Positions 5,198 to 21,377 of a DNA stretch of 64,000 bases are shown here, piece by piece. The notes beneath the pieces are model-generated. The model had not been told where the DNA came from. It made no database searches and saw only the letters and a list, made by a program, of their open reading frames with translations. The DNA is from Rhizobium etli CFN 42 (GTDB taxonomy: Bacteria; Pseudomonadota; Alphaproteobacteria; Rhizobiales; Rhizobiaceae). Within the stretch, counting starts at the first letter, position 1. Each line of letters begins with the position of its first letter. Position numbers and translations under genes: made by a program. Location of the stretch: the NCBI RefSeq assembly GCF_000092045.1, contig NC_007764.1:124001-188000 (forward strand), read 5' to 3'.

Positions 5198-6079
5198 ATG
5201 GCGGCCATGCAAGAACCTGTTGAAAGCGATCTTCTCAGAACCTTCCTGGTCGTTGCTGAGACCTCGAATTTCTCCGCGGCTGCCCAGCGCATCGGCCGGA
5301 CTCAATCGGCCGTCAGCACGCAGATCAAGAGGCTCGAGGCGGCGATCGGCGAAACTCTGTTCGAGCGCGTCGCCCGCGGCGTCCTGCTGACGCGTCAGGG
5401 CATACAGCTCGTGCCCTACGCCCGTCGGGTCATCGACCTGCTGAACGAGGCGGCCGCTACAATCCGCAGCAAGCCGCTTGACGGCCCGGTGCGCATCGGA
5501 ATTCCCGAGGAATACAGCCAGACGGTACTGCCGGCAGCGCTCGCGGCTTTTGCGGTTCGCCATCCGGCGGTCGAAGTGACTGTCTCCTGCGATTACACGG
5601 TCCGCAACCTTGCGGCCCTGGAACGGGACGAACTCGATCTCGCCGTCGTCTTCGACTGGAGCGATCAGAACAAGGGCGAGGTTCTCTGTGTCGATCCGAC
5701 CGTCTGGGTCACGTCGATGGTACACCGACTGCACGACATCGATCCCCTGCCGGTTGCGACCTATCGCAATTCCACCTGGTCACGCGATTTTGCGCTACGC
5801 TCGCTGGAGCAGATCGGCCGCAGCTACCGGATCGCCTTCATCGCCGATACCGGTTCGGGACTGAAGAATGCCGTGACAGCCGGCCTTGCCGTTACGACGC
5901 TTTCGCGCAGCAGCATTCCGCCCGGCTGCCGCGAACTGACCGCCGGGGATGGCTTCCCGCCGGTCGATTCCTCGAAGGTCGTGCTGCGCCGCAATAGTTT
6001 CCGCTCCAGTGAGGCCGTGCGGGAACTCGCCGAAATGCTGCGGGACGCGTTTCAGCCTATGTCGGTGCCGATGATATGA
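5198..6079 (+). CDS. LysR family transcriptional regulator
   Basis: 293 residues. The N-terminal winged HTH is typical: DLLRTFLVVAETSNFSAAAQ, then RTQSAVSTQIKRLEAAIG and LFERVARGVLLTRQG. It is followed by a periplasmic-binding-fold effector domain from about residue 92 (PVRIGIPEEY). LysR proteins usually activate a divergent target in response to a small ligand; here the target is most likely the EamA exporter 42 bases away. ATG 5198 is used, and ATG 5207 (MQEPVESD) is possible because neither has a good ribosome site. The gene is convergent with cdhR and their 3' ends overlap by 23 bases (6057-6079). Confidence 0.9.
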   Translation: MAAMQEPVESDLLRTFLVVAETSNFSAAAQRIGRTQSAVSTQIKRLEAAIGETLFERVARGVLLTRQGIQLVPYARRVIDLLNEAAATIRSKPLDGPVRIGIPEEYSQTVLPAALAAFAVRHPAVEVTVSCDYTVRNLAALERDELDLAVVFDWSDQNKGEVLCVDPTVWVTSMVHRLHDIDPLPVATYRNSTWSRDFALRSLEQIGRSYRIAFIADTGSGLKNAVTAGLAVTTLSRSSIPPGCRELTAGDGFPPVDSSKVVLRRNSFRSSEAVRELAEMLRDAFQPMSVPMI

Positions 6080-7046
6080 TGCGGCGGCGCAAGCGGCGCC
6101 GCGTCTCCGACGGGCTCTCGGAAAAGCTCGCCCGGTAGCTTCTCGCAAAGGCCGAGGCTGAGTTGAAGCCGGTTGCCGCTGCGATGTCGGCGAAGGAGGC
6201 CGTCGTCTCAATCACCTTGCGGCGCGCCGTGTTCAGACGCAGCGCCAGATAATGCACATGCGGCGGCGCGCCGATGCTCTGCTGGAAGAGGTCCTGAAGA
6301 TGCCGGGCGCTGACACCGACCCTGCGGGCGAGCCGGGCCAACACCAGAGGCTGCTCGATATGCTCCTCCATCAGATGCACCGCCTGCGTCACGCGTGGAT
6401 CATGCGCACGCAGCCCCGCCGAAGCGGCGGAAAGCGTTTCGTCGGCATGGAAGGAAGGCTGCTCGTAGCGGAACAGCCGGCTGACTTCGAGCGCCAGCGA
6501 ATAACCCTGCCGTTGCCGTATCACTTCCAGCATCAGGTCAACGGTCGGAAGCGAACCCGAAGTCGTCAGCCGCTTGCCGTCGATGACGAAGCGATCCTTG
6601 ACGGCCCTCACCTCGGGATAGGCGAGTGCAAAGTCCTCGTAATCCTCCCAGTGAACGGTCGCTGATAGACCGTCGAGCAGACTTGCCTCCGCCAGCAGCC
6701 ACGTGCCGGACTCGATGCCGGCAACGATCGAGCGGTGGCGGGCAGCTTGCGAGAGCTGCATTTTGAGTGCTGGCGTCGCGCTTTGGCGCCAGCTGTAGCT
6801 CGCAAGTACGAACAATGGCACATTCTCGGTCGTCGTCCGAAAAGCTCCTTGGGTTGGGATGGCGATATGGCTCGTGGTTGGGACCGGCGCGCCGTCCGGC
6901 GTCAACAGCCGCCAGCGATAGAGCTCGGTGCCGGCGATGCGATTGGCGCCGCGCAGCGGCTCGATGACCGATGCGATCAGGATCAGGTTCGTCTCCGGCA
7001 GAATCAGAAGGTCGATATCGAGCCGTTCCGTCGATCGCTGCAGCAA
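6057..7046 (-). CDS. cdhR: GlxA family (DJ-1/PfpI plus AraC) regulator of carnitine catabolism
   Basis: 329 residues in two parts. The first is a class I glutamine-amidotransferase-like DJ-1/PfpI domain (residues about 10-190, with the elbow region GIESGTWLLAEASLLDG). The second is a C-terminal AraC domain with two HTH motifs (LARRVGVSARHLQDLF and IAAATGFNSASAFARSY). This is the architecture of Pseudomonas aeruginosa CdhR, which activates carnitine dehydrogenase genes. Assignment as cdhR rests on this architecture plus its divergent position 106 bases from cdhC. The start is TTG 7046, chosen because a perfect TAGGAGG lies nine bases upstream; no ATG fits. It presumably binds between 6.05 and 7.15 kb and senses carnitine or a relative. 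Confidence 0.85.
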   Translation of the reverse strand: MLQRSTERLDIDLLILPETNLILIASVIEPLRGANRIAGTELYRWRLLTPDGAPVPTTSHIAIPTQGAFRTTTENVPLFVLASYSWRQSATPALKMQLSQAARHRSIVAGIESGTWLLAEASLLDGLSATVHWEDYEDFALAYPEVRAVKDRFVIDGKRLTTSGSLPTVDLMLEVIRQRQGYSLALEVSRLFRYEQPSFHADETLSAASAGLRAHDPRVTQAVHLMEEHIEQPLVLARLARRVGVSARHLQDLFQQSIGAPPHVHYLALRLNTARRKVIETTASFADIAAATGFNSASAFARSYRASFSESPSETRRRLRRRIISSAPT

Positions 7047-7152
7047 GGTCGCCTCCTAAGGTTTCCGATAATGTATCAATCGTCGCCGAAACTGCAAAGC
7101 ATCCCCGCTCATCCTGTCGCGTAATGGCTGACAAGACGGGGAGAACAAAAAC

Positions 7153-8055
7153 ATGCCTCTTGCGATGAACCGCGATGTTTTCATCACCTGCGCCGTCACC
7201 GGCGCCGGCGATACGGTTTCCAGATCCAGCCACGTTCCCATTACTCCCAAGCAGATCGCGGATTCCGCGATCGACGCCGCCAAGGCTGGAGCGGCCGTTG
7301 TTCATTGCCATGTCCGCGATCCGGAAACGGGGGCCGCCAGCCGCCGCAACGACCTCTATAGAGAGGTCACCGACCGCATCCGTTCGGCCGATATCGACGT
7401 CGTCCTCAATCTCACCGCCGGCATGGGCGGGGACCTGATCTTCGGGGATGTCGAAAGCCCCCTTCCCCTCAACGTGAAAGGCACCGACATGGCGGGCGCC
7501 AGCGAGCGCGTCAGTCATATCGCCGAATGCCTGCCGGAAATCTGCACGCTCGATTGCGGCACGATGAACTTCAATCTCGGCGACTATGTCATGACCAATA
7601 CGCCGGCCATGCTGCGGGCGATGGCCAAGAAGATGACGGATCTCGGCGTGCGGCCGGAGATCGAGGCTTTCGACACCGGCCATCTCTGGTTCGCCAAGCA
7701 GCTTGCCGAAGAGGGGCTGATCGAAGATCCGGTGCTGATCCAGCTCTGCATGGGTATTCCGTGGGGCGCGCCCGACGACCTCAACACCTTCATGGCGATG
7801 GTCAACAACGTGCCTCAGAGCTGGACCTTCTCGGCTTTTTCGATCGGCCGCAACGCCATGGCCTATCCGGCGGCCGCGGTTCTCGCCGGCGGCAACGTGC
7901 GCGTCGGCCTGGAAGACAATCTCTTTATCGGCAAGGGGCAGCTCGCCACAAATGCGCAGCTCGTCGAAAAGGCCGTGCAGGTGGTCGAAGGCATGGGCGC
8001 GCGCATCATCGGGCCGGAGGATGTGCGCAAGAAGCTGAAGCTGACGAAGCGCTGA
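7153..8055 (+). CDS. cdhC: 3-dehydrocarnitine:acetyl-CoA cleavage enzyme (BKACE/DUF849 family)
   Basis: 300 residues of the beta-keto acid cleavage enzyme family, zinc-dependent TIM barrels. In the carnitine pathway this enzyme converts 3-dehydrocarnitine plus acetyl-CoA to betainyl-CoA plus acetoacetate. The zinc-binding signature is seen as HCHVRDP (His51, His53), with VLNLTAGMGGD, TLDCGTMNFN and a C-terminal GGNVRVGLEDN, all typical of BKACE. It is the first gene of a tightly spaced operon: the next gene starts seven bases after its stop. The carnitine assignment, rather than another beta-keto acid, comes from the adjoining carnitine-dehydrogenase/thioesterase fusion and CdhR-like regulator. 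GGGGAGAAC precedes ATG 7153; ATG 7165 is a possible later start. Confidence 0.9.
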   Translation: MPLAMNRDVFITCAVTGAGDTVSRSSHVPITPKQIADSAIDAAKAGAAVVHCHVRDPETGAASRRNDLYREVTDRIRSADIDVVLNLTAGMGGDLIFGDVESPLPLNVKGTDMAGASERVSHIAECLPEICTLDCGTMNFNLGDYVMTNTPAMLRAMAKKMTDLGVRPEIEAFDTGHLWFAKQLAEEGLIEDPVLIQLCMGIPWGAPDDLNTFMAMVNNVPQSWTFSAFSIGRNAMAYPAAAVLAGGNVRVGLEDNLFIGKGQLATNAQLVEKAVQVVEGMGARIIGPEDVRKKLKLTKR

Positions 8056-8062
8056 GGATATC

Positions 8063-9553
8063 ATGACGAAGATCAGCAAGGCGGCCTGTATCGGCGGCGG
8101 CGTCATCGGCGGCGGATGGATCGCCCGTTTCCTGCTCGCCGGTATCGACGTCGACGTGTTCGACCCGCATCCGGAAGCAGGCCGCATCGTCGGCGAGATC
8201 ATCGCCAATGCGGAAAAAGCGTATGCAATGCTGACCGGCGCGCCCTTGCCGCCGCGCGGCAAGCTGACCTTCTGCGAGACGCTCGCGGAAGCCGTTGCCG
8301 ATGCCGACTGGATTCAGGAAAGCGTACCGGAACGGCTCGACCTCAAGCGCGGCGTCCTGACCGAGATCGATGCCGCCGCGCGCCCGGAGGCGCTGATCGG
8401 CTCGTCCACCTCGGGCCTGCTGCCGACCGATCTGCAGCGCAACATGACGCATCCCGAACGCCTCTTCGTCGCCCACCCCTATAATCCCGTCTATCTGCTG
8501 CCGCTCGTCGAAATCGTCGGCGGCGAGAAGACCTCGGCGGGGACGATTCGGGCGGCGATCGAAAGACTGGCGCCGATCGGCATGAAGGGTGTTCACATCG
8601 CTAAGGAGATCGAAGCCTTCGTCGGCGACCGGCTGCTCGAAGCGCTCTGGCGCGAGGCGTTGTGGCTCATCCATGACGACATCTGCACGGTCGAGACGCT
8701 CGACGACGTGATTCGTTATTCCTTCGGCCTGCGCTGGGCGCAGATGGGCCTGTTCCAGACCTACCGCATTGCCGGCGGCGAGGCCGGCATGCGTCACTTC
8801 CTCGCCCAGTTCGGCCCCTGCCTCGCCTGGCCCTGGACCAAGCTCACCGATGTCGTCGATCTCGACGACGCCCTGATCGAAAAGATTGGCCGGCAATCCG
8901 ATGAGCAGGCCGCCGGCCTCTCAATCCGCGCGCTCGAACGCATCCGCGACGAAAATCTCGTCGGCATCCTCCAGGCCCTCAAGGGCGGTGATAACGGCAA
9001 AGGTTGGGGTGCCGGTAAGCTGCTGAAGGATTTCGAACAAACCCTCTGGGCGCGAGGCGGTGATGCGGCCGCTTCTGCCGATCCGTCGAAGCCGCTACGG
9101 CTGGTCGAAACCAAGGTGAGCCCCGCCTGGGTCGACTACAACGGCCACATGACCGAGCACCGTTATCTCCAGGTATTCGGTGATACATCCGATGCGCTGC
9201 TGCGCCTTATCGGCGTCGACCTTGCCTATGTCGAGGCGGGGCACAGCTATTACACAGTGGAAAGCCATATCCGCCATCTCGGCGAGGCGAAGCTCGGCCA
9301 GGCGATCCATTCGGCCTGCCAGATCCTGACCGCCGACGAGAAGCGGCTGCATGTCTTCCACACATTGCGCGACACGGCGACGGGCGCGGTCATCGCAACC
9401 GCCGAGCAGATGCTGCTGCATGTCGACAGCAAGGAGGGCAAGGCAGTGGCGGCGCCCGCCGCGGTGCTCGACAGGGTGAAGGCGATTGCCGCGGCCCATG
9501 CGGAACTGGCGCTGCCCGAAGGCGCCGGCCGTCACGTTGGCCAGAGGCGGTAG
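8063..9553 (+). CDS. cdhAB: Bifunctional L-carnitine 3-dehydrogenase / betainyl-CoA thioesterase
   Basis: A 496-residue fusion. Residues about 1-320 are a 3-hydroxyacyl-CoA-dehydrogenase-type NAD enzyme with GGGVIGGGW near the N terminus and the catalytic-region motif VAHPYNPVYLLPLVEIV. Residues about 347-480 are a hotdog thioesterase (RLVETKVSPAWVDYNGHMTE, a 4-hydroxybenzoyl-CoA-thioesterase-like D-x-N-G-H-M motif). In Pseudomonas these are separate genes, cdhA and cdhB; the fused form is known in rhizobia. The first half oxidises L-carnitine to 3-dehydrocarnitine, and the second half releases glycine betaine from the betainyl-CoA made by CdhC, so the pathway's first and last steps share one chain. 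AGGATATC precedes ATG 8063. The next gene starts ten bases after its stop. Confidence 0.92.
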   Translation: MTKISKAACIGGGVIGGGWIARFLLAGIDVDVFDPHPEAGRIVGEIIANAEKAYAMLTGAPLPPRGKLTFCETLAEAVADADWIQESVPERLDLKRGVLTEIDAAARPEALIGSSTSGLLPTDLQRNMTHPERLFVAHPYNPVYLLPLVEIVGGEKTSAGTIRAAIERLAPIGMKGVHIAKEIEAFVGDRLLEALWREALWLIHDDICTVETLDDVIRYSFGLRWAQMGLFQTYRIAGGEAGMRHFLAQFGPCLAWPWTKLTDVVDLDDALIEKIGRQSDEQAAGLSIRALERIRDENLVGILQALKGGDNGKGWGAGKLLKDFEQTLWARGGDAAASADPSKPLRLVETKVSPAWVDYNGHMTEHRYLQVFGDTSDALLRLIGVDLAYVEAGHSYYTVESHIRHLGEAKLGQAIHSACQILTADEKRLHVFHTLRDTATGAVIATAEQMLLHVDSKEGKAVAAPAAVLDRVKAIAAAHAELALPEGAGRHVGQRR

Positions 9554-9563
9554 GAGGATCGGC

Positions 9564-10724
9564 ATGGATTTTGGTCTCAGCGAAGAACAGGAAATGATCG
9601 TCGAGACGGTCCGCGCTTTCGTCGAAACCGAGATCTATCCGCATGAGAACGAGGTCGAGCGGACCGGCATCGTGCCACCGGAACTCGGGCGCGAGATTCA
9701 GCGCAAATGCATCGATCTCGGCTTTTACGCCTGCAATTTCCCGGAGGAGATCGGCGGCGCCGGCCTCGACCATGTCACCTTCACGCTGGTGGAGCGCGAG
9801 CTCGGGCGCGGCTCGCTCGGCCTGACGGTCTTCTTCGGCCGGCCCTCCGGCATCCTTATGGCCTGCGAGGGCGAGCAGCGCGAGCGCTATTTGCTGCCGG
9901 CGGTGCGCGGCGAGAAGATTGATGCGCTTGCCATTACCGAGCCGGGTGCCGGTTCCGATATGCGCGGCATGAAATGTGCTGCCCGCCGCAGCGGCGGCGA
10001 TTTCGTCCTCGACGGCACGAAACATTTCATCTCGCACGCCGACGTCGCCGATTTCGTCATCGTCTTCGCCGCCACCGGCGAGGAGGAAACGCCGAAAGGC
10101 ATCAAGAAGAAGATCACCGCCTTCCTCGTTGATCGCGGGACGCCGGGGTTCGAGATCCTGAAGGGCTACGATTCGGTTTCGCATCGCGGCTACCACAATT
10201 GCACCCTCAGCTTTACCGATTGCCGGATCCCTGAAGCCCAAGTGCTGGGCGAGGTGCATCGCGGCTTCGATATCGCCAATCGATGGCTTTACGGCACCCG
10301 GCTGACGGTTGCCGCCACCTGCGTCGGCCGGGCCCGGCGCGTCTTCGAGATGGCACTTCCCTATGCCGCCGAACGCAAGCAGTTCGGCAGGCCGATCGGC
10401 GCCAATCAGGGCGTTTCGTTCAAGCTCGCAGATATGATCACCGAGATTGACGCGGCCGACTGGCTGACGCTTGCCGCCGCCTGGCAGGTCGATGCCGGTC
10501 TTGCAGCCGACCGCCAGATCGCCTCGGCCAAGCTCTACGCCTCCGAAATGCTGGCCCGGGTCACTGACGAGGCGATCCAAATCTATGGTGGCATGGGTCT
10601 GATGGATGACCTGCCGCTCGCCCGCTTCTGGCGCGATGCGCGCGTCGAGCGCATCTGGGACGGCACCTCGGAAATCCAGCGGCATATCATCAGCCGCGAT
10701 CTGCTTCGGCCCCTGGGAGCGTGA
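9564..10724 (+). CDS. Acyl-CoA dehydrogenase, probably gamma-butyrobetainyl-CoA/crotonobetainyl-CoA
   Basis: 386 residues with the normal acyl-CoA dehydrogenase layout: N-terminal helical domain, flavin-binding ITEPGAGSD and middle beta domain, then the C-terminal four-helix domain with ERKQFGRPIGANQG and IYGGMGLMDDLPLARFWRD. It would introduce a double bond next to the CoA ester; between the carnitine genes and a CaiD homologue the likely substrate is gamma-butyrobetainyl-CoA, as for CaiA in reverse. Odd point: the position of the canonical catalytic Glu (E in YEGTSQIQR of the family) is Asp366 here, in RIWDGTSEIQR. TAGGAGG sits nine bases before ATG 9564. It is translationally tight with its neighbours, with four bases between its stop and the next start. 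Confidence 0.87.
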   Translation: MDFGLSEEQEMIVETVRAFVETEIYPHENEVERTGIVPPELGREIQRKCIDLGFYACNFPEEIGGAGLDHVTFTLVERELGRGSLGLTVFFGRPSGILMACEGEQRERYLLPAVRGEKIDALAITEPGAGSDMRGMKCAARRSGGDFVLDGTKHFISHADVADFVIVFAATGEEETPKGIKKKITAFLVDRGTPGFEILKGYDSVSHRGYHNCTLSFTDCRIPEAQVLGEVHRGFDIANRWLYGTRLTVAATCVGRARRVFEMALPYAAERKQFGRPIGANQGVSFKLADMITEIDAADWLTLAAAWQVDAGLAADRQIASAKLYASEMLARVTDEAIQIYGGMGLMDDLPLARFWRDARVERIWDGTSEIQRHIISRDLLRPLGA

Positions 10725-10728
10725 ACGG

Positions 10729-12783
10729 ATGACATCCAAACCGCTCGACCGCCTGCTCAGACCTCAAACGATCGCCGTCTTCGGCGGTCGCGAGGCGCGC
10801 AGGGTGATCGAGCAATGCGACCGCATGGGCTTTTCGGGCCAGATCTGGCCCGTCCATCCCAAACTCGAGGAGGTGCTTGGACGGCCGTGTTATCGCTCTG
10901 TATCCGATCTGCCTTCTGCCCCGGACGCTGCTTTCGTGGGTGTCAACAGGACGCTGACGGTCGAGATCGTGCGCAGCCTTTCAGACGCCGGCGCCGGTGG
11001 AGCGGTCTGCTATGCATCGGGCTTCAGCGAGGCGACGGCGGAACTTGCCGACGGCACCGAACTGCAGCAGGCCCTTATGGAGGCGGCGGGTGACATGCCA
11101 ATCCTTGGGCCGAACTGCTACGGGCTGATCAACGGTCTCGATGGCGCCCTGTTATGGCCCGACCAGCACGGCATGAAACGCATCGAACGCGGCGTCGCGA
11201 TCCTCACACAATCCTCCAATATCGCCCTCAACCTCACCATGCAGACCCGCGGGCTGCCGATCGCCTATATGGTCACTGCGGGCAACCAGGCGCAGACATC
11301 GCTTGCCGATATCGCCAGCGCGCTGATGGAGGATCAGCGGGTCACGGCGATCGGTCTTCATGTCGAGGGTTTCGGCGACCTCGCGGCCCTAGAACGCCTT
11401 GCAGCCATCGCCCGCCGGTTGAAGAAGGCGGTCGTCGTGCTGAAGGTCGGCAGGTCCGAGCAGGCGAAACACGCGGCCGTATCCCACACCGCCTCGCTCG
11501 CCGGCAGCGACGCGGTGGCGGATGCCATGCTCACCCGTCTCGGTCTCGGCCGTGTCCAGAGCCTGCCGGCGCTGCTTGAAACCCTAAAATTACTGCATAT
11601 CGCCGGCCCTCTCCCGAGCCATTCGATCTCGTCCATGAGCTGCTCCGGCGGCGAGGCTTCGCTGATGGCGGATGCCGCCGTCGGCCGCGAGGTGGAATTC
11701 CCGGCGCTGCAGCCACAACAATTGCCGCGTCTGCGTCAGGTCCTCGGCGATATGGTGGCGCTTTCAAATCCGCTCGACTACCACACCTTCGTCTGGGGCG
11801 ATTTCGAACGCCAGGCCGAAGCCTTCAGAGCCATGTTCGAAGGCGGTTATGCCCTCAATCTCGTCGTTCTCGACTTCCCGCGTGGCGACCGCTGCGATGC
11901 GGCCGAATGGGCGACGACGGTGGATGCGGTGATCGCCGCCGCCTCTGCCACCGGTACACTGGCCGGCCTTCTCGCAACCCTTCCGGAGAATATGCCGGAG
12001 CCGATCGCCGATCGTCTCATGGCGAATGGCATCATCGCCTTTTCGGGCATCGACGAAGCCATTATTGCGGCGGAAGCCGCCGCCGGTATTGGCAAGGTCT
12101 GGGATCGCCCGCCTCCCCTGCCGCTGCTCGACGTGCCGTCCATGGACGGCGAAATCGAGACGCTGACGGAAGCCGACGCGAAGACGGAACTTGCTGCCTG
12201 CGGCCTCCCTGTTCCCTGGGGGCTGCAGGCTTTTTCTCCTCGCGAAGCCGCCGAGCAGGCCGAGCGGCTCGGTTTTCCCGTCGTGCTGAAGGGTCTCGGC
12301 ATTGCGCACAAGACCGAGGCCGGCGCTGTCGTTCTCAACCTCAGAGATCCGGAGGCGGTGTCAAATGCGGCGGCAGCGATGCCGGCGAATGGCGGTTACC
12401 TCATCGAGAAGATGATCGATCCGCCGGTCGCCGAGCTCATTGTCGGGGCTACCCGCGATCCTGTATTCGGTTTGTCGCTCACCTTGGGAGCTGGCGGAAT
12501 ATTCGTCGAACTGCTTGACGATTCCATCGTTTTGCCGCTGCCCGCAACAAAGGCCGAAATTCGCGACGCGCTTTTGGGCCTCAAGATTGCTAAGGTGATC
12601 CATGGCTATCGTGGGCGGCCGAGGGGTGATCTCGACGCCGCCGTAGACGCTGTCGCAGCTGCGGCAGAATATGTCGTAAAAAATGCGGTGCGCCTGGAGG
12701 AACTGGACCTTAATCCGTTGATGGTTCTGCCCGAAGGGCGCGGTGTTGTTGCAGTTGATGCTCTCATACGCCGAAGGAGGTAG
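10729..12783 (+). CDS. Single-chain ADP-forming type acyl-CoA synthetase (acetate--CoA ligase family)
   Basis: 684 residues. Residues about 8-100 form a CoA-binding Rossmann domain (QTIAVFGGREARRVIEQ). Succinyl-CoA-ligase-like domains follow, with the phosphohistidine loop SHTASLAGSD, and then a C-terminal ATP-grasp (about 475-684, GFPVVLKGLGIAHKTEAGAV, ELDLNPLMVLPEGRG). The family makes acyl-CoA from acid, CoA and ATP, with ADP and phosphate as products. Carnitine operons of enterobacteria instead use the AMP-forming ligase CaiC and the transferase CaiB, neither of which is present here, so this protein is the obvious candidate for activating gamma-butyrobetaine, crotonobetaine or carnitine. 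That substrate is inference. ATG 10729 is chosen because the longer frame lies inside the upstream gene. Confidence 0.87.
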   Translation: MTSKPLDRLLRPQTIAVFGGREARRVIEQCDRMGFSGQIWPVHPKLEEVLGRPCYRSVSDLPSAPDAAFVGVNRTLTVEIVRSLSDAGAGGAVCYASGFSEATAELADGTELQQALMEAAGDMPILGPNCYGLINGLDGALLWPDQHGMKRIERGVAILTQSSNIALNLTMQTRGLPIAYMVTAGNQAQTSLADIASALMEDQRVTAIGLHVEGFGDLAALERLAAIARRLKKAVVVLKVGRSEQAKHAAVSHTASLAGSDAVADAMLTRLGLGRVQSLPALLETLKLLHIAGPLPSHSISSMSCSGGEASLMADAAVGREVEFPALQPQQLPRLRQVLGDMVALSNPLDYHTFVWGDFERQAEAFRAMFEGGYALNLVVLDFPRGDRCDAAEWATTVDAVIAAASATGTLAGLLATLPENMPEPIADRLMANGIIAFSGIDEAIIAAEAAAGIGKVWDRPPPLPLLDVPSMDGEIETLTEADAKTELAACGLPVPWGLQAFSPREAAEQAERLGFPVVLKGLGIAHKTEAGAVVLNLRDPEAVSNAAAAMPANGGYLIEKMIDPPVAELIVGATRDPVFGLSLTLGAGGIFVELLDDSIVLPLPATKAEIRDALLGLKIAKVIHGYRGRPRGDLDAAVDAVAAAAEYVVKNAVRLEELDLNPLMVLPEGRGVVAVDALIRRRR

Positions 12784-12790
12784 CATAGGT

Positions 12791-13573
12791 GTGAGCGACT
12801 ACGTTCGTACACGACGTGACGGCGCAGTACTGGAAGTCGTTATCGACCGGCCGAAGGCGAACGCCATCGACCTCGCGACCAGCCGTGCCATGGGCTTGAT
12901 CTTCCGAGATTTTCGCGACGATCCCGAACTGCGTGTCGCCATCATCTCGGGCGCGGGCGAAAAGTTCTTTTGCGCTGGATGGGACCTGAAGGCGGCGGCA
13001 TCAGGCGATGCCGTCGACGGCGATTACGGCGTGGGCGGCTTCGGCGGGCTCCAGGAACTGCGCGACCTCAACAAGCCGGTCATTTGTGCGGTCAACGGCC
13101 TCTGTTGCGGCGGCGGCCTGGAGATCGCGCTTTCGACCGACCTGATCATTGCCGCCGAGCATGCGACTTTCGCCTTGCCGGAAATCCGCTCGGGCACAGT
13201 CGCCGACGCGGCCTCGATCAAGCTGCCGAAGCGCATTCCCTATCACATCGCCATGGACATGCTTTTGACCGGACGCTGGCTCGACGTGCACGAGGCGCAT
13301 CGCTGGGGTTTCGTCAATGAGGTTGTGCCGGCCGAACGGCTGATGGAGAGAGCCTGGGAGCTCGCCCGGCTGCTCGAAAGCGGACCGCCGCTCGTCTATG
13401 CGGCCATCAAGGAGATCGTGCGCGAAGCGGAGGGTTCGACGTTCCAGACAGCTATGAACAAGATCACCAAAAGGCAGTTTGCAACAGTCGACCGGCTCTA
13501 TTCGAGCGAAGACCAACTGGAAGGCGCGCGGGCTTTCGCGGAGAAGCGAAGCCCCATTTGGAAAGGACGATAA
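12791..13573 (+). CDS. caiD: Enoyl-CoA hydratase of the carnitinyl-CoA dehydratase (CaiD) type
   Basis: 260 residues, the same length as E. coli CaiD (261). The shared stretches I can recall are close: RPKANAID, SGAGEKFFCAGWDLKAAA, FALPE, and the C-terminal FAEKRSPIWKGR, nearly identical to the CaiD tail. Crotonase-fold oxyanion-hole and acid residues lie in AVNGLCCGGGLEIALSTDLI and FALPEIRSGTVAD. It would hydrate crotonobetainyl-CoA to carnitinyl-CoA. GTG 12791 is preferred: AGGAGGT (12775-12781) is ten bases upstream and the length matches the family, while ATG 12743 would overlap the ligase by 41 bases. The transporter genes follow after about 120 bases that contain a small perfect hairpin CCCGCA-TGA-TGCGGG (13599-13613). 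Confidence 0.9.
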   Translation: MSDYVRTRRDGAVLEVVIDRPKANAIDLATSRAMGLIFRDFRDDPELRVAIISGAGEKFFCAGWDLKAAASGDAVDGDYGVGGFGGLQELRDLNKPVICAVNGLCCGGGLEIALSTDLIIAAEHATFALPEIRSGTVADAASIKLPKRIPYHIAMDMLLTGRWLDVHEAHRWGFVNEVVPAERLMERAWELARLLESGPPLVYAAIKEIVREAEGSTFQTAMNKITKRQFATVDRLYSSEDQLEGARAFAEKRSPIWKGR

Positions 13574-13690
13574 GGAGGCGGCGGCAACCGCGCATTTTCC
13601 CGCATGATGCGGGCACCGGAGGTGGAGAGGAAACCGCCTGCGATCCTGCCCGGAAGTTCTGTCAACGCACCACAAAGAAGGAACTGGGGA

Positions 13691-15280
13691 ATGAACGACT
13701 ATACGAAATACCTCGCAAGCCGCGTCACCGCGGGCGGGCTCAGCCGCCGCGAATTCATGGGACGCGCCATGGCGGCGGGCATCACACTTGCCGTCGCCGA
13801 CAAGCTCTTCACCGAAAGCGCCGAAGCCGCCGAACCGAAGCGCGGCGGCCATCTGAAGCTCGGCCTTGAGGGGGGCGCCGCCACCGATTCCAAGGACCCG
13901 GCGAAATTCCTGTCGCAGTTCATGTTCTGCGTCGGCCGCTGCTGGGGCGACATGCTGGTTGAGTCAGACCCGCTGACGGGTGCGGCGGTGCCGGCGCTCG
14001 CCGAATCCTGGGAGCCGTCGAAGGACGCGGTGACCTGGACCTTCAAGATCCGAAAGGGCGTCAAGTTCCACGATGGCAAGGAACTGACGATCGATGATGT
14101 CGTCGCCACGCTGAAGCGTCACACCGACAAGAAATCGGAATCCGGCGCGCTTGGCGTTCTCGGCTCGATCAAGGAGATCAAGGCTGACGGAGGCAATCTG
14201 GTGCTGACACTCAGCGAAGGCAATGCCGACATGCCGCTGCTGCTGTCCGACTACCATCTGGTCATTCAGCCGAATGGCGGCGTCGACGATCCGCTGGCTT
14301 CGATCGGCACAGGTCCCTACAAGCTGACGAGCTTCGAGCCCGGCGTCCGCGCCACCTTTGAGAAGAACAAGGACGACTGGCGCAGCGACCGCGGTTATGT
14401 CGATTCGATCGAGATCATCGGCATGAACGATGCGACCGCCCGCATCGCCGCACTTTCGTCCGGCCAGGTGCATTATATCAACCGCGTCGATCCGAAGACC
14501 GTCAATCTCTTGAAACGTGCCCCCAATGTCGAGATCCTCTCGACCGCCGGCCGGGGCCATTACGTCTTCATTATGCATTGCGACAAGGCGCCGTTCGACA
14601 ACAACGACCTGCGGCTGGCGCTCAAATACGCCATGGACCGCGAAACCATGGTGCAGAAGATCCTCGGCGGCTACGGCAAGGTCGGCAACGACTTTCCGAT
14701 CAACGCCACCTATGCGCTGTTTCCCGAGGGCATCGAGCAGCGCGTCTACGATCCCGACAAGGCCGCTTTCCACTATAAGAAGTCAGGCCATAGCGGCTCG
14801 GTCCTTCTGCGCACCTCCGAAGTCGCCTTCCCCGGCGCCGTCGATGCCGCCGTGCTCTACCAGGAAAGCTGCAAAAAGGCCGGGATCGAGATCGAGGTCA
14901 AGCGTGAGCCGGGCGACGGCTACTGGACCAATGTCTGGAACGTCCAGCCCTTCTCGACCTCATATTGGGGCGGCCGTCCGACGCAGGACCAGATGTATTC
15001 CACCGCCTATCTCTCGACGGCGGACTGGAACGACACCAAGTTCAAGCGTCCTGACTTCGACAAGCTGTTGTTGCAGGCCCGTTCCGAGCTTGATGAAGCC
15101 AAGCGCAAGGACATGTATCGTACCATGGCGATGATGGTGCGCGATGAAGGCGGCGTGATCCTGCCGATGTTCAACGACTTCGTGAACGCCTCTACCAAGC
15201 AGGTGAAGGGGTATGTTCACGACATCGGCAACGACATGTCGAACGGCTACGTCGCCACCCGCGTCTGGCTGGACGCCTGA
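13691..15280 (+). CDS. Tat-exported family 5 (DppA/OppA-type) substrate-binding protein
   Basis: 529 residues. The N terminus carries a twin-arginine signal (SRREFMGRAMAAGITLA, residues about 18-34) ending in ESAEAAEPKRGG, so it is probably exported folded. The mature protein is a cluster C binding protein with WTFKIRKGVKFHDGKELTIDDVVATLKR, NADMPLLLSDYHLVIQP and DNNDLRLALKYAMDRETMV. This family binds di/oligopeptides, opines and nickel, and in rhizobia many unrelated solutes. It lies directly behind the carnitine-type catabolic genes and before the permeases, so a quaternary ammonium compound or a conjugate of one is the likely ligand (inference). ATG 13691 follows AACTGGGGA. A close paralogue lies at 19800. 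Confidence 0.9.
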   Translation: MNDYTKYLASRVTAGGLSRREFMGRAMAAGITLAVADKLFTESAEAAEPKRGGHLKLGLEGGAATDSKDPAKFLSQFMFCVGRCWGDMLVESDPLTGAAVPALAESWEPSKDAVTWTFKIRKGVKFHDGKELTIDDVVATLKRHTDKKSESGALGVLGSIKEIKADGGNLVLTLSEGNADMPLLLSDYHLVIQPNGGVDDPLASIGTGPYKLTSFEPGVRATFEKNKDDWRSDRGYVDSIEIIGMNDATARIAALSSGQVHYINRVDPKTVNLLKRAPNVEILSTAGRGHYVFIMHCDKAPFDNNDLRLALKYAMDRETMVQKILGGYGKVGNDFPINATYALFPEGIEQRVYDPDKAAFHYKKSGHSGSVLLRTSEVAFPGAVDAAVLYQESCKKAGIEIEVKREPGDGYWTNVWNVQPFSTSYWGGRPTQDQMYSTAYLSTADWNDTKFKRPDFDKLLLQARSELDEAKRKDMYRTMAMMVRDEGGVILPMFNDFVNASTKQVKGYVHDIGNDMSNGYVATRVWLDA

Positions 15281-15320
15281 TGGCAAGGGGTGCAGCGCCC
15301 CTCCGATCTCCGACGAAGCT

Positions 15321-15350
15321 GGGACCGTGGGAAGAAAACCCGCGGTCCTC
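15321..15350 (+). terminator. Intercistronic hairpin after the binding-protein gene
   Basis: A 9-bp stem with one G-U pair, GACCGTGGG (15323-15331) with CCCGCGGTC (15339-15347), has an A-rich loop and is followed by CTCCCGACGTTTT. It lies between the binding protein and first permease. Such hairpins often protect or partially terminate the message so that binding protein outnumbers permease. Confidence 0.5.
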
Positions 15351-15377
15351 CCGACGTTTTAGCCAAAGGCATTTGCC

Positions 15378-16385
15378 ATGACCAACCCTGCCCCAAGCAA
15401 TATCTTGCCGGGCCTGAGGCTCCGGCAGCGTTTTCCGTTGCTTGCCCTCATCCTCGAGCGCTTCGTGCTCAGCATTATTCTGCTTTTTGCGGTTTCCATC
15501 CTGATCTTCGGCGGGCTCGAAGCCCTGCCCGGCGATTTTGCCACCACCTATCTCGGCCAGTCGGCAACGCCGCAGGCCGTTGCCAATATCCGCCAGGATC
15601 TCGGACTGGACCGTCCGGTCACGACACGTTACGTCGAGTGGCTCGGCAATGCCGTCCAGGGTGACTTCGGCACCTCATGGGCCAGCAAGAATTCGGTGAG
15701 CGAGCAGATCGGCAAACGTCTCGGCAATTCGCTCTTCCTGGCGGGGTTCGCAGCGGTGATTTCGGTGCCGCTCGCAGTCGGCCTCGGCATGTTCTCGGTG
15801 CATTTCCGCAACCGCATGCCGGATAAGATCATCAACGTGATCTCGCTTGCCGCGATCTCGCTGCCGGAATTCTTCATCGGTTACCTGCTGATCCTCTTCT
15901 TCGCCGTGAAGTTCGGCATCGCCACCTTTCCGGCGACCGTCTACGACAGCATGGGCTTCGCCGAGCGGCTGAAGGCGATCGCGCTGCCGACCGCTACCCT
16001 GGTGCTCGTCGTATTGGCGCATATGATGCGTATGACCCGGGCTGCGATCCTCTCGGTGATGTCGTCGGCCTATATGGAGACCGCCGAGCTTAAAGGTCTC
16101 AGTGCCTTCCGCGCGATCGTCAAGCACGCCGCCCCCAACGCGCTGGCGCCGATCATCAATGTCGTCGCATTGAACCTCGCCTATCTCGTGGTCGGCGTTG
16201 TCGTCGTCGAAGTGGTCTTCGTTTATCCCGGCATGGGGCAATACATGGTCGACGCGGTCACGGTGCGCGACATGCCCGTGGTGCAGGCCTGCGGCCTGAT
16301 CTTCGCGGCCGTCTACATCTTCCTCAATATGATTGCCGACATCCTTGCGATCATCGCCAATCCGCGGCTGAGGCATCCGCGATGA
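15378..16385 (+). CDS. ABC transporter permease, DppB type
   Basis: 335 residues with about six membrane segments, the first at ERFVLSIILLFAVSILIFGGLEALPGD. The N-terminal LGQSATPQAVANIRQDLGLDRP segment is characteristic of the DppB/OppB branch. The EAA loop that contacts the ATPase is visible near SAYMETAELKGLSAFRAIVKHAAPNALAPI. It is the first of two inner-membrane subunits of the importer fed by the 13691 protein. The next permease overlaps its stop by four bases (ATGA at 16382), so the two are translationally coupled. It follows the binding protein by 97 bases containing the hairpin. Confidence 0.92.
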   Translation: MTNPAPSNILPGLRLRQRFPLLALILERFVLSIILLFAVSILIFGGLEALPGDFATTYLGQSATPQAVANIRQDLGLDRPVTTRYVEWLGNAVQGDFGTSWASKNSVSEQIGKRLGNSLFLAGFAAVISVPLAVGLGMFSVHFRNRMPDKIINVISLAAISLPEFFIGYLLILFFAVKFGIATFPATVYDSMGFAERLKAIALPTATLVLVVLAHMMRMTRAAILSVMSSAYMETAELKGLSAFRAIVKHAAPNALAPIINVVALNLAYLVVGVVVVEVVFVYPGMGQYMVDAVTVRDMPVVQACGLIFAAVYIFLNMIADILAIIANPRLRHPR

Positions 16386-17209
16386 GAGCAAGAGACATAC
16401 CCATCACCGCCTGGATCGGCATGGCCGGCATTGCCGTCGCCTTCATTTTCGCTGTCTTCGCGCCCTGGATCGCGCCCTTCGGGGAGACCCAAGTCGTCGG
16501 CGACGTCTGGCAGCTGCCCGACGACAAATATGTCTTCGGCCTCGACAATCTCGGCCGCGATATCCTCTCGCGGCTGATCTACGGCGCGCGCACGACGCTG
16601 CTCGTCGCCTCCGCCGCCACCATCATATCCTTCTCGCTCGGCATCATCCTGAGCTTCACGGCCGCCGTCTCGCGCGGCCTCATCGACACGGTCTTTTCCC
16701 GCTTCAACGATCTGATGATGTCGATCCCGACGCTGATCTTCGCGCTGGTGGTGCTCGCGGTTCTGCCGCAGAATATCCTCGTCCTGATCCTTGTCATGGC
16801 GATCCTCGATTCCACTCGCGTCTACCGTCTCGGCCGCGCCGTGGCGCTCGATGTGGCGGTGATGGAATTCGTCGAGGCGGCCAAACTGCGCGGTGAAGGC
16901 AAGCTCTGGATCATCTTCCGCGAAATTCTGCCGAACACGCTGTCGCCTCTGCTGGCCGAGTTCGGACTGCGCTTCGCCTTCTCGATCCTGTTCCTCTCGA
17001 CGCTCTCCTTCCTCGGCCTCGGGATCCAGCCGCCGGCGGCCGACTGGGGCGGCATGGTGAAGGACAACAAGGACGGGATCATCTTCGGCATTTCAGCCGC
17101 ACTGGTGCCGGGTACGGCGATTGCGGTGCTCGCCATCTGCGTCAACCTCGTCGTCGATTGGCTGCTGAAACGCACATCCAGCCTCAAGGGAGGGCGTGGC
17201 GATGCCTGA
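16382..17209 (+). CDS. ABC transporter permease, DppC type
   Basis: 275 residues with about six membrane helices. The family landmarks are FGLDNLGRDILSRLIYGARTTLLVA after the first periplasmic loop, FNDLMMSIPTLIFALVVLAVLP, the EAA loop VEAAKLRGEGKLWIIFREILPNTLSPLLAEFGLRF, and LSFLGLGIQPPAADWGGMVKDNKDGI near the C terminus. It forms the heterodimeric channel with the preceding permease. The start ATG overlaps the upstream stop by four bases, and its 3' end overlaps the ATPase start by eight bases (17202-17209), so the three genes are read as one translational unit. Confidence 0.92.
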   Translation: MRARDIPITAWIGMAGIAVAFIFAVFAPWIAPFGETQVVGDVWQLPDDKYVFGLDNLGRDILSRLIYGARTTLLVASAATIISFSLGIILSFTAAVSRGLIDTVFSRFNDLMMSIPTLIFALVVLAVLPQNILVLILVMAILDSTRVYRLGRAVALDVAVMEFVEAAKLRGEGKLWIIFREILPNTLSPLLAEFGLRFAFSILFLSTLSFLGLGIQPPAADWGGMVKDNKDGIIFGISAALVPGTAIAVLAICVNLVVDWLLKRTSSLKGGRGDA

Positions 17210-18833
17210 GCTTCTTTCCGTTCGCAACCTAAAAATCGAGGCGACCAGCTATCCGCCGGGCGAGCCGCCCAAGCGGGTTACGATCGTCGACGACGTTTCC
17301 TTCGACCTCAAGAAGGGCAAGGTTCTCGGCCTGATCGGAGAATCGGGCGCCGGCAAGTCGACGATCGGCCTCTCGGCGCTTGCCTATGGCCGCGGCGGTG
17401 CCGAAATCACCGGCGGCGAGGTTCGGCTCGACGGCACCGATATTCTGGCACTCGGCAAGAACGGTGTGAGGAAAATCCGCGGCGCCCGCGTCTGCTATGT
17501 CGCGCAATCGGCGGCAGCCGCCTTCAATCCGGCGCACAGGCTCGGCGATCAGGTGATCGAAGCATCGGTCAAGCATGGGCTTATGACGAGGGAGGAGGCG
17601 CGCAAACGGGCGCTTTATCTGTCCCGTGTCCTCGGCCTGCCCAACCCCGAGACCTTCGGCGAGCGCTTTGCCCATCAGGTTTCCGGTGGCCAGTTGCAGC
17701 GCGCGATGACGGCGATGGCGCTCTGCTCCAACCCCGAGCTCATCGTCTTCGACGAGCCGACCACGGCACTCGACGTCACCACGCAGATCGACGTGCTGGC
17801 GGCGATCAAGCATGCGATCGAGGAGACCCATACGGCCGCCCTCTACATCACCCACGATCTTGCCGTCGTCGCGCAGATTTCCGACGACATCATGGTCCTG
17901 CGCCATGGCAAGCAGGTGGAGTATGGCAGTGTTCAGCAGATCATCGAGGCGCCGCGCGAGGACTATACCCGCGCCCTCGTCAATGTCAGGCAGGCCTATC
18001 GCGAGGAAGCCGCCGATCAGTCCACGGCCCTTCTCAAAGTGGAGAATGTCAGCGCCGAATATTCCAACGGCTTCAAGGTGCTGCACGGTGTCTCGCTGCA
18101 TGTGCCGAAGGGGCAGACGCTTGCCGTCGTCGGCGAATCCGGCTCCGGAAAATCGAGCCTGGCACGCGCCATTACCGGCCTCCTGCCGCCAAGCAGCGGA
18201 GGCATCGTCTTCGGCGGCAAGCCACTGGTGCCCGATCTGAAGAACCGGCAAAACGACGACCTCAGGCGTATCCAGCTGATCTATCAGATGGCCGACACGG
18301 CGATGAACCCGAGGCAGACGGTTCGCGACATCATCGGCCGTCCGTTGACCTTCTATTATGGCCTCAGAGGTGCGGAGAAGACGGCCAGAGTGAAGGAATT
18401 GCTCGATCAGATCGAGATGGGCAACGGCTTCATCGACCGCTACCCGGCCGAACTCTCCGGCGGCCAGAAGCAGCGCGTGGCGATCGCAAGAGCCCTTGCC
18501 GCCAAGCCCGAGCTCATTCTTTGCGACGAGCCGACCTCGGCGCTCGACCCGCTGGTGGCCGAGGGTATCCTCAAGCTGCTGCTGCGCCTGCAGCAGGAGG
18601 AACAGCTGTCCTACATCTTCATCACCCACGACATCGCGATCGTCCGGGCGATTGCCGACAGCGTGGCGGTGATGCATCGCGGCAAGCTCGTGCGCTTCGG
18701 GCCGAAATCGACGGCGCTGTCGCCACCCTTCGATGATTACACCGATCTGCTGTTGAAATCGGTGCCCGAAATGGAAATTGGCTGGCTGGAACGGGTGCTG
18801 ACGACGCGGAAGATGGCAAGCGCCGGGAATTGA
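17202..18833 (+). CDS. Fused dual-domain ABC ATPase (DppD-DppF type)
   Basis: 543 residues with two complete nucleotide-binding domains. The first has Walker A GESGAGKST (about residue 47), signature VSGGQLQRAM and Walker B LIVFDEPTTALD. The second has Walker A GESGSGKSS (about 311), signature LSGGQKQRVAIARAL and [12 protein letters not shown]. Each is followed by a switch histidine (ITHDLAVVAQ and ITHDIAIVRA). In peptide transporters these are often two separate proteins; one fused chain serving both permeases is a known variant. ATG 17202 is preferred over GTG 17196 because AGGGAGG (17188-17194) is correctly spaced from it. It is the last gene of the carnitine-type operon; the next gene is on the opposite strand. 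Confidence 0.92.
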   Translation: MPELLSVRNLKIEATSYPPGEPPKRVTIVDDVSFDLKKGKVLGLIGESGAGKSTIGLSALAYGRGGAEITGGEVRLDGTDILALGKNGVRKIRGARVCYVAQSAAAAFNPAHRLGDQVIEASVKHGLMTREEARKRALYLSRVLGLPNPETFGERFAHQVSGGQLQRAMTAMALCSNPELIVFDEPTTALDVTTQIDVLAAIKHAIEETHTAALYITHDLAVVAQISDDIMVLRHGKQVEYGSVQQIIEAPREDYTRALVNVRQAYREEAADQSTALLKVENVSAEYSNGFKVLHGVSLHVPKGQTLAVVGESGSGKSSLARAITGLLPPSSGGIVFGGKPLVPDLKNRQNDDLRRIQLIYQMADTAMNPRQTVRDIIGRPLTFYYGLRGAEKTARVKELLDQIEMGNGFIDRYPAELSGGQKQRVAIARALAAKPELILCDEPTSALDPLVAEGILKLLLRLQQEEQLSYIFITHDIAIVRAIADSVAVMHRGKLVRFGPKSTALSPPFDDYTDLLLKSVPEMEIGWLERVLTTRKMASAGN

Positions 18834-18892: not shown

Positions 18893-19690
18893 TCAATACT
18901 CTGCCGGCACCGCATACACTTCCGCGGATGGATCTGCGAGGAACGAGCGCACCGTCGGTGGCAGCTGGCGTGAAGACAGCGGCAGTGGTCCGCAACGCGA
19001 CAGAAGCTCGCGTAGGTTGGGCTCGGCGCCGACATGCCGCCAGATCATGCGCGACGCATACGGGAGATTTTCCCGTCGCCACGAAACTCCCATTGTCGTC
19101 CCGCGCAGATAGACGCGCTGGTACTCATCGAATGGCAGGAGGATCGTCTGTGAAAGTACCGGATTCGGGCCGACGACTCGCTCCGTAATGAAGATCCGGT
19201 TTCGATAGAAGGCCGCAAGGCCGACATATTTCGAAAATTGCTGGATGCCGTTTCCAGCGTCCCGCAGACGCTCCATTGATTTGACATGCACAAGCCCACC
19301 CTTCTCCACAAAGCGGCTGCACGAACAGACAACCATCCCCGGCCAGGACGGGGAGCGATGATAGGTCTGGAAATAGCCAATATGGCGCCGGAGCGCGGTC
19401 AGATCGCCTGGGAACGCCTTTAATAGTTCGGAACTTTGATTGAGGTCTAGAGTCGGTTTGCGAAGCCGCTCGCGAAAGAGCCTGGGAGCGAGACCAAAAT
19501 CGGCTGCGTCGAGGTCGAAATACTTGGCTATGCGCGCGAGATTATGGGCAGACGGCCTCGTCTGGCCGTTGATATATCGATTGAATTGCTGCCGGTTGAT
19601 ATCGATCGCGCGGCAAAGATGCGAAATGGAACGTTGCGTGGCACAGGCGATCTTGAGGTTCTCGACTAGGTGGGGCATCGGCGGTTCCAT
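18893..19690 (-). CDS. XRE-type HTH transcriptional regulator
   Basis: 265 residues. The N terminus is a Cro/C1-type HTH of a recognisable form: SISHLCRAIDINRQQFNRYINGQTRPS, then NLARIAKYFDLDAADFGLAP (residues about 20-65). The remaining 200 residues are a domain I do not recognise, with GYFQTYHRSPSWPGMVVCSC and a C-terminal basic/aromatic stretch, probably a ligand-binding region. It is divergent from the paralogous binding protein at 19800, with a short direct repeat between them, so it is likely to regulate that gene set. ATG 19690 is used although it lacks a clear ribosome site; ATG 19678 (MPHLVENL) is an alternative. Confidence 0.8.
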   Translation of the reverse strand: MEPPMPHLVENLKIACATQRSISHLCRAIDINRQQFNRYINGQTRPSAHNLARIAKYFDLDAADFGLAPRLFRERLRKPTLDLNQSSELLKAFPGDLTALRRHIGYFQTYHRSPSWPGMVVCSCSRFVEKGGLVHVKSMERLRDAGNGIQQFSKYVGLAAFYRNRIFITERVVGPNPVLSQTILLPFDEYQRVYLRGTTMGVSWRRENLPYASRMIWRHVGAEPNLRELLSRCGPLPLSSRQLPPTVRSFLADPSAEVYAVPAEY

Positions 19691-19749: not shown

Positions 19750-19799
19750 CAGCCTGATCTCTACGTTCCCTTCTAATAACGTTGAAAAAGGGAACTGAA

Positions 19800-21377
19800 A
19801 TGACACGTGAAAAGGATCAATCTTCGCCTCTGAGTATCGGCCGCCGTCACTTCGTTGGCGGTGCCGTCGCGCTGGGTGCTTTGCCAGTCCTCACCTCCGG
19901 CCTCTTGATGCCGCGCGATGCCCGCGCGGAAGCGAAGCGCGGTGGTCATCTGAAACTCGGTCTCAAGGGCGGGGCCACCAGTGATACGCTCGACCCCGCG
20001 ACCTATAGCGCCTCGGTGTTGTTCGTGATTGGCCGTCTCTGGGGCGACACCCTTGTCGAATCCGACCCTAAGACCGGGGCGCCCTTGCCGTCGCTGGCGA
20101 CTTCCTGGACGCCATCGGCGGACGCATCCGTCTGGACTTTCAAAATCAGGAACGACGTGCAGTTTCACGACGGCGGCAAGATGACCGTCGCGGACATCGT
20201 CGCGACACTGAAACGACACGCGGACAAGAATTCGCAGTCGGGCGCTCTGGGGCTCATGGCCTCGATCACCGGTATCGAAGAAAAAGCTGGCGACCTTATC
20301 CTCACACTTTCGGAAGGCAATGCGGACCTGCCTTTGCTTTTGACCGACTATCACCTGATCATCCAACCGAAGGGCGGCCTCGACAAGCCTGCGGCGGCCA
20401 TCGGTACAGGTCCTTACATTCTGAAAAGCTTCGAACCGGGCGTTCACGCAACCTTCGAGAAAAACCCGAAGGATTGGCGCTCCGACCGCGGCTTTGTCGA
20501 CAGTATCGAAATCCTCGTCATCAACGACAACACCGCCCGCGTTGCCGCACTTGCCTCCGGCCAAGTCCATTTCGTCAACAATGTCGACCCCAAGACAGTC
20601 CCGATGCTGCAGCGAGCACCGACCGTCGAAATCCTCCGGAATGCAGGCAAGGGCTTCTATTGTTTCCTAATGCATTGCGACACGGCTCCCTTCGACAACA
20701 CCGATCTTCGGCTTGCGCTGAAATATGCCATCGATCGTCAGGCGATCCTCGACAAGGTTCTGGGCGGCTACGGAGTCATCGGCAACGACTATCCGGTCAA
20801 TTCCAACTACGCCCTCGCCCCGACCGATATCGAGCAGCGCCCTTATGATCCAGACAAGGCCGCCTTCCACTTCAAGAAAGCGGGTCTCGACCGCTCCATT
20901 CAACTGCTCACGTCAGACGCAGCCTTTCCGGGCGCTGTGGATGCGGCGATCCTGTTCCAGCAAAGCGCGCGCAAGGCCGGCATCACGATCGACGTCAAGC
21001 GCGAACCGGAAGACGGCTACTGGACCAATGTCTGGAACAAACAGCCCTTCTGCGCCTCGTTCTGGGGCGGTCGTCCGACCCAGGATTCGCGCTATTCCAC
21101 CTCTTACCTGTCGACCGCAGAATGGAACGACACGCGTTTCAAGCGCCCTGACTTCGACAAATTGGTTCTGCAAGCAAGGTCAGAACTCGATGAGGCCAAG
21201 CGCAAGGTGCTTTATCGGCAATTGGCCCTGATGGTGCGAGACGACGGCGGTCTGATCCTGCCCGTCTTCAACGACTACATCATGGCCTCTTCGAAAATGC
21301 TGCAGGGATATGTCGACGACATCGGCAACGATATGTCCAACGGCTACATCGGCAGCCGTGTGTGGCTTAATGCCTAA
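19800..21377 (+). CDS. Second Tat-exported family 5 binding protein, paralogue of the 13691 gene
   Basis: 525 residues. The signal carries GRRHFVGGAVALGALPVL (twin arginine) and ends near ARAEAKRGG. The mature protein aligns with the 13691 protein along its whole length with roughly two residues in three identical by eye, including KRGGHLKLGL, LSEGNAD, SIGTGPY/AIGTGPY and DDIGNDMSNGY. It therefore probably feeds the same DppBC-ATPase complex with a related ligand, since no second permease set is present. ATG 19800 follows AAAGGGAACTGAA; a TTG six codons upstream is less likely. A CocE-type hydrolase starts 15 bases after its stop, so the pair is an operon, and the divergent HTH gene is the probable regulator. 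Confidence 0.9.
   Translation: MTREKDQSSPLSIGRRHFVGGAVALGALPVLTSGLLMPRDARAEAKRGGHLKLGLKGGATSDTLDPATYSASVLFVIGRLWGDTLVESDPKTGAPLPSLATSWTPSADASVWTFKIRNDVQFHDGGKMTVADIVATLKRHADKNSQSGALGLMASITGIEEKAGDLILTLSEGNADLPLLLTDYHLIIQPKGGLDKPAAAIGTGPYILKSFEPGVHATFEKNPKDWRSDRGFVDSIEILVINDNTARVAALASGQVHFVNNVDPKTVPMLQRAPTVEILRNAGKGFYCFLMHCDTAPFDNTDLRLALKYAIDRQAILDKVLGGYGVIGNDYPVNSNYALAPTDIEQRPYDPDKAAFHFKKAGLDRSIQLLTSDAAFPGAVDAAILFQQSARKAGITIDVKREPEDGYWTNVWNKQPFCASFWGGRPTQDSRYSTSYLSTAEWNDTRFKRPDFDKLVLQARSELDEAKRKVLYRQLALMVRDDGGLILPVFNDYIMASSKMLQGYVDDIGNDMSNGYIGSRVWLNA

Follow-up and report, generated by a model that had tools for sequence, protein, structure and literature searches.

A Rhizobium etli gene cluster for the predicted conversion of gamma-butyrobetaine to glycine betaine, with an ADP-forming acyl-CoA ligase

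The stretch of DNA analysed here, referred to as the window, comprises 64,000 nucleotides of Rhizobium etli CFN 42 (contig NC_007764.1, positions 124,001 to 188,000). At 6057..18833 it contains a gene cluster predicted to convert gamma-butyrobetaine (GBB) to glycine betaine through coenzyme A (CoA) esters, which is part of a 250,948-base contig in a genome of 6.53 Mb. Family scans of the cluster proteins recovered, in place, all the genes that a first-pass annotation had listed for this region:

6057..7046, minus strand: GATase/AraC-type regulator, CdhR-like (HTH_18; 68% identical to the S. meliloti neighbour; divergent position)
7153..8055, plus strand: CdhC (Pfam BKACE, E 1.3e-96; 89% identical to S. 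meliloti)
8063..9553, plus strand: CdhA-CdhB fusion, CdhAB (NCBIfam PRK07531 above cut-off; 3HCDH and 4HBT_2 domains)
9564..10724, plus strand: acyl-CoA dehydrogenase, ACAD (Pfam acyl-CoA dehydrogenase domains)
10729..12783, plus strand: single-chain ADP-forming (ACD) acyl-CoA ligase (CoA_binding_2, Succ_CoA_lig and ATP-grasp_5)
12791..13573, plus strand: CaiD-type crotonobetainyl-CoA hydratase, GTG start (best NCBIfam model; comparison with E. coli CaiD)
13691..15280, plus strand: SBP_bac_5 substrate-binding protein, SBP1 (family scan)
15378..16385, plus strand: ATP-binding cassette (ABC) permease, first of two (family scan)
16382..17209, plus strand: ABC permease, second of two (family scan)
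17202..18833, plus strand: double ABC ATPase (family scan)

For ACAD, the ligase, CaiD and SBP1, the scanned frames started slightly upstream of the listed start codons, by a few bases. The five enzyme genes from cdhC to caiD are separated by 7, 10, 4 and 7 bases. An AGGAGG motif overlaps the CdhAB stop codon ahead of ACAD, and a second one lies just inside the end of the ligase gene, before its stop codon and upstream of CaiD. The earlier suggestion that nearly all of the genes are cotranslated fits the enzyme genes, 4-10 bases apart; ahead of SBP1 and of the first permease, the intervals widen to 117 and 97 bases.

The regulator is of the GATase/AraC type. Its top NCBIfam model is GbdR, with 203 bits under a cut-off of 480, and its designation as a probable CdhR comes from its divergent position. 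CdhAB scored 942 bits against the NCBIfam model PRK07531, carnitine 3-dehydrogenase (cut-off 592), which places it in this family, and it is predicted to combine L-carnitine dehydrogenase with a hotdog (betainyl-CoA) thioesterase. ACAD has short-chain and butyryl-CoA type enzymes as its best PDB matches, shares 31% identity with E. coli CaiA, and is probably a gamma-butyrobetainyl-CoA dehydrogenase. For CaiD, the crotonobetainyl-CoA hydratase model PRK03580 gave 317 bits, under the cut-off of 500, yet was the best of 73 families; the protein shares 53% identity with its E. coli counterpart over 253 residues and would, by its context, work like CaiD.

The absence of a CaiB transferase and an AMP-forming CaiC from the cluster had been noted before. 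It holds for 16 proteins of the cluster and its surroundings that were aligned with E. coli CaiA-E (E 1e-3), among which only ACAD and CaiD were matched; no search was made for AMP-forming ligases encoded at other places in the genome. A CaiB or CaiC concealed in the cluster was ruled out by this comparison. In the whole genome a single CoA_transf_3 protein was identified, on a different contig. In E. coli caiTABCDE, with which the cluster shares CaiD and the acyl-CoA dehydrogenase chemistry, CaiB and CaiC take the place held by one ACD ligase in R. etli, and the system serves anaerobic reduction instead of oxidative use.

The CoA-binding, flavodoxin-like ligase and ATP-grasp domains and the position of the phosphohistidine place the ligase in the ACD superfamily, and it is the sole full-length ACD match in the R. 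etli genome. A copy 98% identical is present on a Rhizobium etli plasmid. In the AlphaFold model (predicted local distance difference test score 88.3), the top Foldseek match was DddX (PDB 7cm9), an ACD enzyme acting on the betaine analogue dimethylsulfoniopropionate (DMSP) as an ATP-dependent DMSP lyase (PMC8163506). Both proteins share the phosphohistidine (His253 in the ligase, His292 in DddX) and, along their whole length, the ACD fold (TM score 0.88), and an onium acid is the substrate class of DddX and the predicted one of the ligase. However, they are only about 25% identical, and the elimination base Glu432 of DddX is not kept in the ligase, where it aligns with A391 and where none of 22 orthologues has a glutamate. 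F435 of DddX aligns with W394, a tryptophan in 21 of the 22 orthologues, and W391 with W356 in one alignment but with H352 in a larger one. Since the counterpart of W391 shifts between alignments, the cation-pi comparison with DddX was rejected as decisive evidence. Among distant ACDs of the family, all nine without CdhC or CdhAB nearby (L132-L140) lack tryptophan at both 394 and 356, and the remaining seven (L141-L147) have it at 394 in four cases and at 356 in four. In a tree, the 22 GBB-type ligases were grouped with a support of 100/100; DddX, with a branch length of 4, was not placeable. A PADLOC scan of the ligase gave no match, and literature searches retrieved no paper on this ligase under its name.

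From its sequence, the ligase is probably a gamma-butyrobetaine--CoA ligase. The proposal that the ATP-grasp ligase is the activating enzyme of the route is supported by the family assignments and by the conserved gene order. In contrast, the accompanying view that the ACD family was not established for betaine acids fails, since DddX acts on a sulfonium betaine (PMC8163506). A ligase without precedent for betaine-like acids was likewise rejected, in view of DddX and of an S. meliloti cluster with the same ligase gene. The R. etli enzyme would be a second specialist for quaternary or sulfonium acids beside DddX in the ACD superfamily, and could help to annotate many proteins now named 'acetate--CoA ligase family'.

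The ligase alignment contained at least 528 relatives in GTDB genomes, and neighbourhoods were counted for the best 80, in named genomes. CaiD (at least 50% identity) follows the ligase in all 80 loci, and ACAD precedes it in 77, the exceptions being two truncated loci (L050, L060) and a different one (L089). Where at least 6 kb of upstream sequence was present, CdhAB was found near the ligase in 71 of 76 loci and CdhC in 70. The five loci without CdhAB nearby (L101, L107, L111, L113, L114) belong to genomes which all encode a full-length fused CdhAB elsewhere, and a CdhAB match was obtained in 8/8 genomes tested. The ACAD-ligase-CaiD order is also kept in 30/30 further loci of the family. From this distribution, the extent of the aerobic GBB route among rhizobia and some roseobacters becomes apparent. 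In two loci (L146, L147) CdhC, CdhAB, ACAD and CaiD are clustered with an ACD ligase just 33-34% identical to the R. etli one; therefore, the ACD ligases that occupy this slot belong to more than one lineage.

To the right, the R. etli cluster runs on with a second binding protein and two hydrolases:

18893..19690, minus strand: XRE-type regulator of the wider conserved cluster (S. meliloti counterpart in the matching place, 64% identical)
19782..21377, plus strand: second SBP_bac_5 binding protein (75% identical to S. meliloti)
21393..23402, plus strand: CocE/NonD-family hydrolase (NCBIfam CocE_NonD 222 bits, cut-off 66; 72% identical to S. meliloti)
23406..24317, minus strand: HSL-type alpha/beta hydrolase, Abhydrolase_3 (family scan; kin in Agrobacterium and Paracoccus carnitine operons)

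The whole set of 14 genes, cdhR through the HSL-type esterase gene, is present in matching order in a record of the alfalfa symbiont Sinorhizobium meliloti, strain Ak57, 63-89% identical (best piece), including the same adjacent CdhC, CdhAB fusion, ACAD, ACD ligase and CaiD. The Ak57 ligase was located by tblastn of plasmid records; this record is labelled pSymB, but its length of 3.72 Mb would suit the chromosome better. In the Ak57 assembly the frames of the ligase and of one permease are interrupted, while intact ligases, 65-67% identical, were found in other Sinorhizobium/Ensifer loci. By its gene content, the R. etli operon is thus very likely orthologous to the S. meliloti-type cluster for conversion of GBB to glycine betaine. 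As such it is already known, and largely an ordinary orthologue of a described cluster. The S. meliloti GBB/carnitine pathway was studied by Bazire et al. (2019, J Bacteriol 201:e00772-18), as cited in PMC12482172, and S. meliloti c01638 is reported there, in the section concerned, as carnitine dehydrogenase and betainyl-CoA thioesterase. For a Rhizobium-like strain of Lonza, HK4, the relevant part of PMC2131755 describes how GBB is turned into carnitine along a path that parallels the degradation of fatty acids.

The reading of the cluster as one pathway, already put forward in the first-pass annotation, is well supported by the family assignments and the conserved gene order. After uptake of carnitine-type betaines by the importer, the ADP-forming ligase would produce gamma-butyrobetainyl-CoA through its phosphohistidine, which ACAD would convert to crotonobetainyl-CoA and CaiD would then hydrate to carnitinyl-CoA. 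Either the thioesterase domain or the ligase, operating in reverse, may remove CoA from carnitinyl-CoA. L-Carnitine would be oxidised to 3-dehydrocarnitine by CdhA, the BKACE-family CdhC is expected to cleave this compound with acetyl-CoA to betainyl-CoA and acetoacetate, and CdhB would set free glycine betaine.

Several points weigh against this interpretation. Between Rhizobium and Sinorhizobium the ligase diverges faster (about 65-69% identity) than ACAD and CaiD (about 80-87%), and the scores of both CaiD and the regulator are under the NCBIfam cut-offs. The S. meliloti comparison was made with strain Ak57, its equivalence to c01638 being presumptive. The observations concern the protein families, the gene order and orthology, whereas each catalytic step in R. 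etli is predicted from sequence. Finally, the ACD ligase has a presumed place among the enzymes of the earlier S. meliloti study. The R. etli cluster has exactly five enzyme genes, one of them for a ligase; the abstract of that study reportedly names five enzymes for the seven steps that lead from GBB to glycine betaine, and it is therefore inferred that the ACD ligase belongs to this set. If this count is right, an enzyme other than the bifunctional one carries out two steps, probably including the release of CoA from carnitinyl-CoA.

The arrangement in other bacteria shows that the aerobic GBB route is an assembly of two separable modules. On Agrobacterium fabrum pAt and Paracoccus denitrificans plasmid 1, the regulator, CdhC, the substrate-binding protein, CdhAB, the permeases, the ATPase and an esterase form one run, with no ACAD, ligase or CaiD beside these carnitine genes in the 17 kb examined. 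On Leisingera and Caballeronia plasmids the ACAD-ligase-CaiD trio was not found near the carnitine genes, and in Ruegeria and others it stands apart from CdhAB. Because of these plasmid and Ruegeria arrangements, importer and esterase are considered to go with carnitine, and ACAD-ligase-CaiD to be a GBB add-on. The importer, which had been taken as dedicated to the GBB route, is consequently better read as a part of the carnitine module, since it occurs with carnitine genes lacking the trio. In Ruegeria (L034:3666-7808), a gene of the trimethylamine-methyltransferase family and one for a flavin adenine dinucleotide oxidoreductase adjoin the trio.

The two hydrolases at the right end raise the question of acylcarnitines. 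In P. aeruginosa caiX-cdhCAB-hocS, as far as the account in PMC5806209 goes, hocS closes the operon and codes for a short-chain acylcarnitine hydrolase; in that account the regulator is likewise divergent from the CdhC, CdhA and CdhB functions and an esterase is linked, but a GBB branch does not appear, CdhA and CdhB are separate, and the importer is of another type. The R. etli HSL-type esterase shares 48% and 47% identity with the esterases at the end of the carnitine operons of Agrobacterium and Paracoccus. Of the Peptidase_S15 matches in the genome, only that of the CocE/NonD hydrolase is strong (235.6 bits, the next one 38.1). In S. meliloti and R. johnstonii, too, both hydrolases accompany the carnitine cluster. 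They are candidate acylcarnitine esterases, a reasonable though tentative guess from sequence. A reading in which the importer and both hydrolases serve mainly acylcarnitines, from which the esterases release carnitine, with GBB as a side branch, appears somewhat unlikely. It is favoured by the operon ends just described and by the recurrence of the hydrolases beside the ligase (HSL-type in at least 36 and CocE in at least 34 of 80 loci, flanks to 10 kb); however, both hydrolase families are broad, with seven other Abhydrolase_3 matches in the genome, the likeness to HocS is one of description, and the acylcarnitine substrates are only putative.

It was also considered that the ACD ligase is reversible, charging GBB and deacylating carnitinyl-CoA with recovery of ATP, by which it would replace CaiC and CaiB and make ACAD-ligase-CaiD a self-contained, ATP-neutral module from GBB to carnitine. 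The trio without CdhAB nearby in five loci argues for this, as do 41 of 86 loci, some of them truncated, with no thioesterase-domain match; no hotdog thioesterase was found among the selected neighbour open reading frames scanned in GBB-only loci, which is not a full survey. However, the five trio-only genomes encode a fused CdhAB elsewhere, and the thioesterase could therefore act from there. On balance this proposal is judged rather unlikely.

Use of the cluster for crotonobetaine or D-carnitine (racemisation via CoA esters) instead of GBB, with an incidental ACAD, is very improbable. CaiD and a CoA ligase would be enough for crotonobetaine, on which the E. coli Cai enzymes act, but the linkage of ACAD to the ligase is no looser than that of the hydratase, and ACAD resembles short-chain and butyryl-CoA dehydrogenases. 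For the ligase, a DddX-like role on DMSP or some other onium acid, with its place next to carnitine genes a coincidence, is scarcely credible: DddX is its best PDB match by sequence and fold, but the low identity, the alanine opposite Glu432 and the ACAD-ligase-CaiD linkage in 77 of the best 80 of at least 528 loci stand against it.

Outside the clusters described for GBB activation, a different solution exists in the SAR11 carnitine island, which according to the part of PMC12421898 devoted to it shares the carnitine dehydrogenase and BKACE, but in which GBB is hydroxylated directly by the gamma-butyrobetaine dioxygenase BBOX, without CoA esters. In a Mesorhizobium-type locus (L078:7023-7652, plus strand), an HD-domain protein of about 209 residues is encoded, with CdhC on one side and an unfused carnitine dehydrogenase on the other; Rhizobium has the fused thioesterase in its stead. 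The HD-domain protein occupies the matching place in 14 further loci of this type (L077, L079-L087, L094, L096, L097, L109) and had no match in the R. etli genome. With 23.5 bits for Pfam HD and PhnZ as the best PDB match (E 6e-5), it is possibly an HD-type oxygenase.

To the left of the R. etli cluster, EamA and LysR genes are located, while other genes are found there in Sinorhizobium. A zinc alcohol dehydrogenase family protein is encoded at 1700-2995 of the window (minus strand). On the corresponding side in R. johnstonii, matched by position, lies fdhA for a glutathione-independent formaldehyde dehydrogenase, which would suit betaine demethylation.

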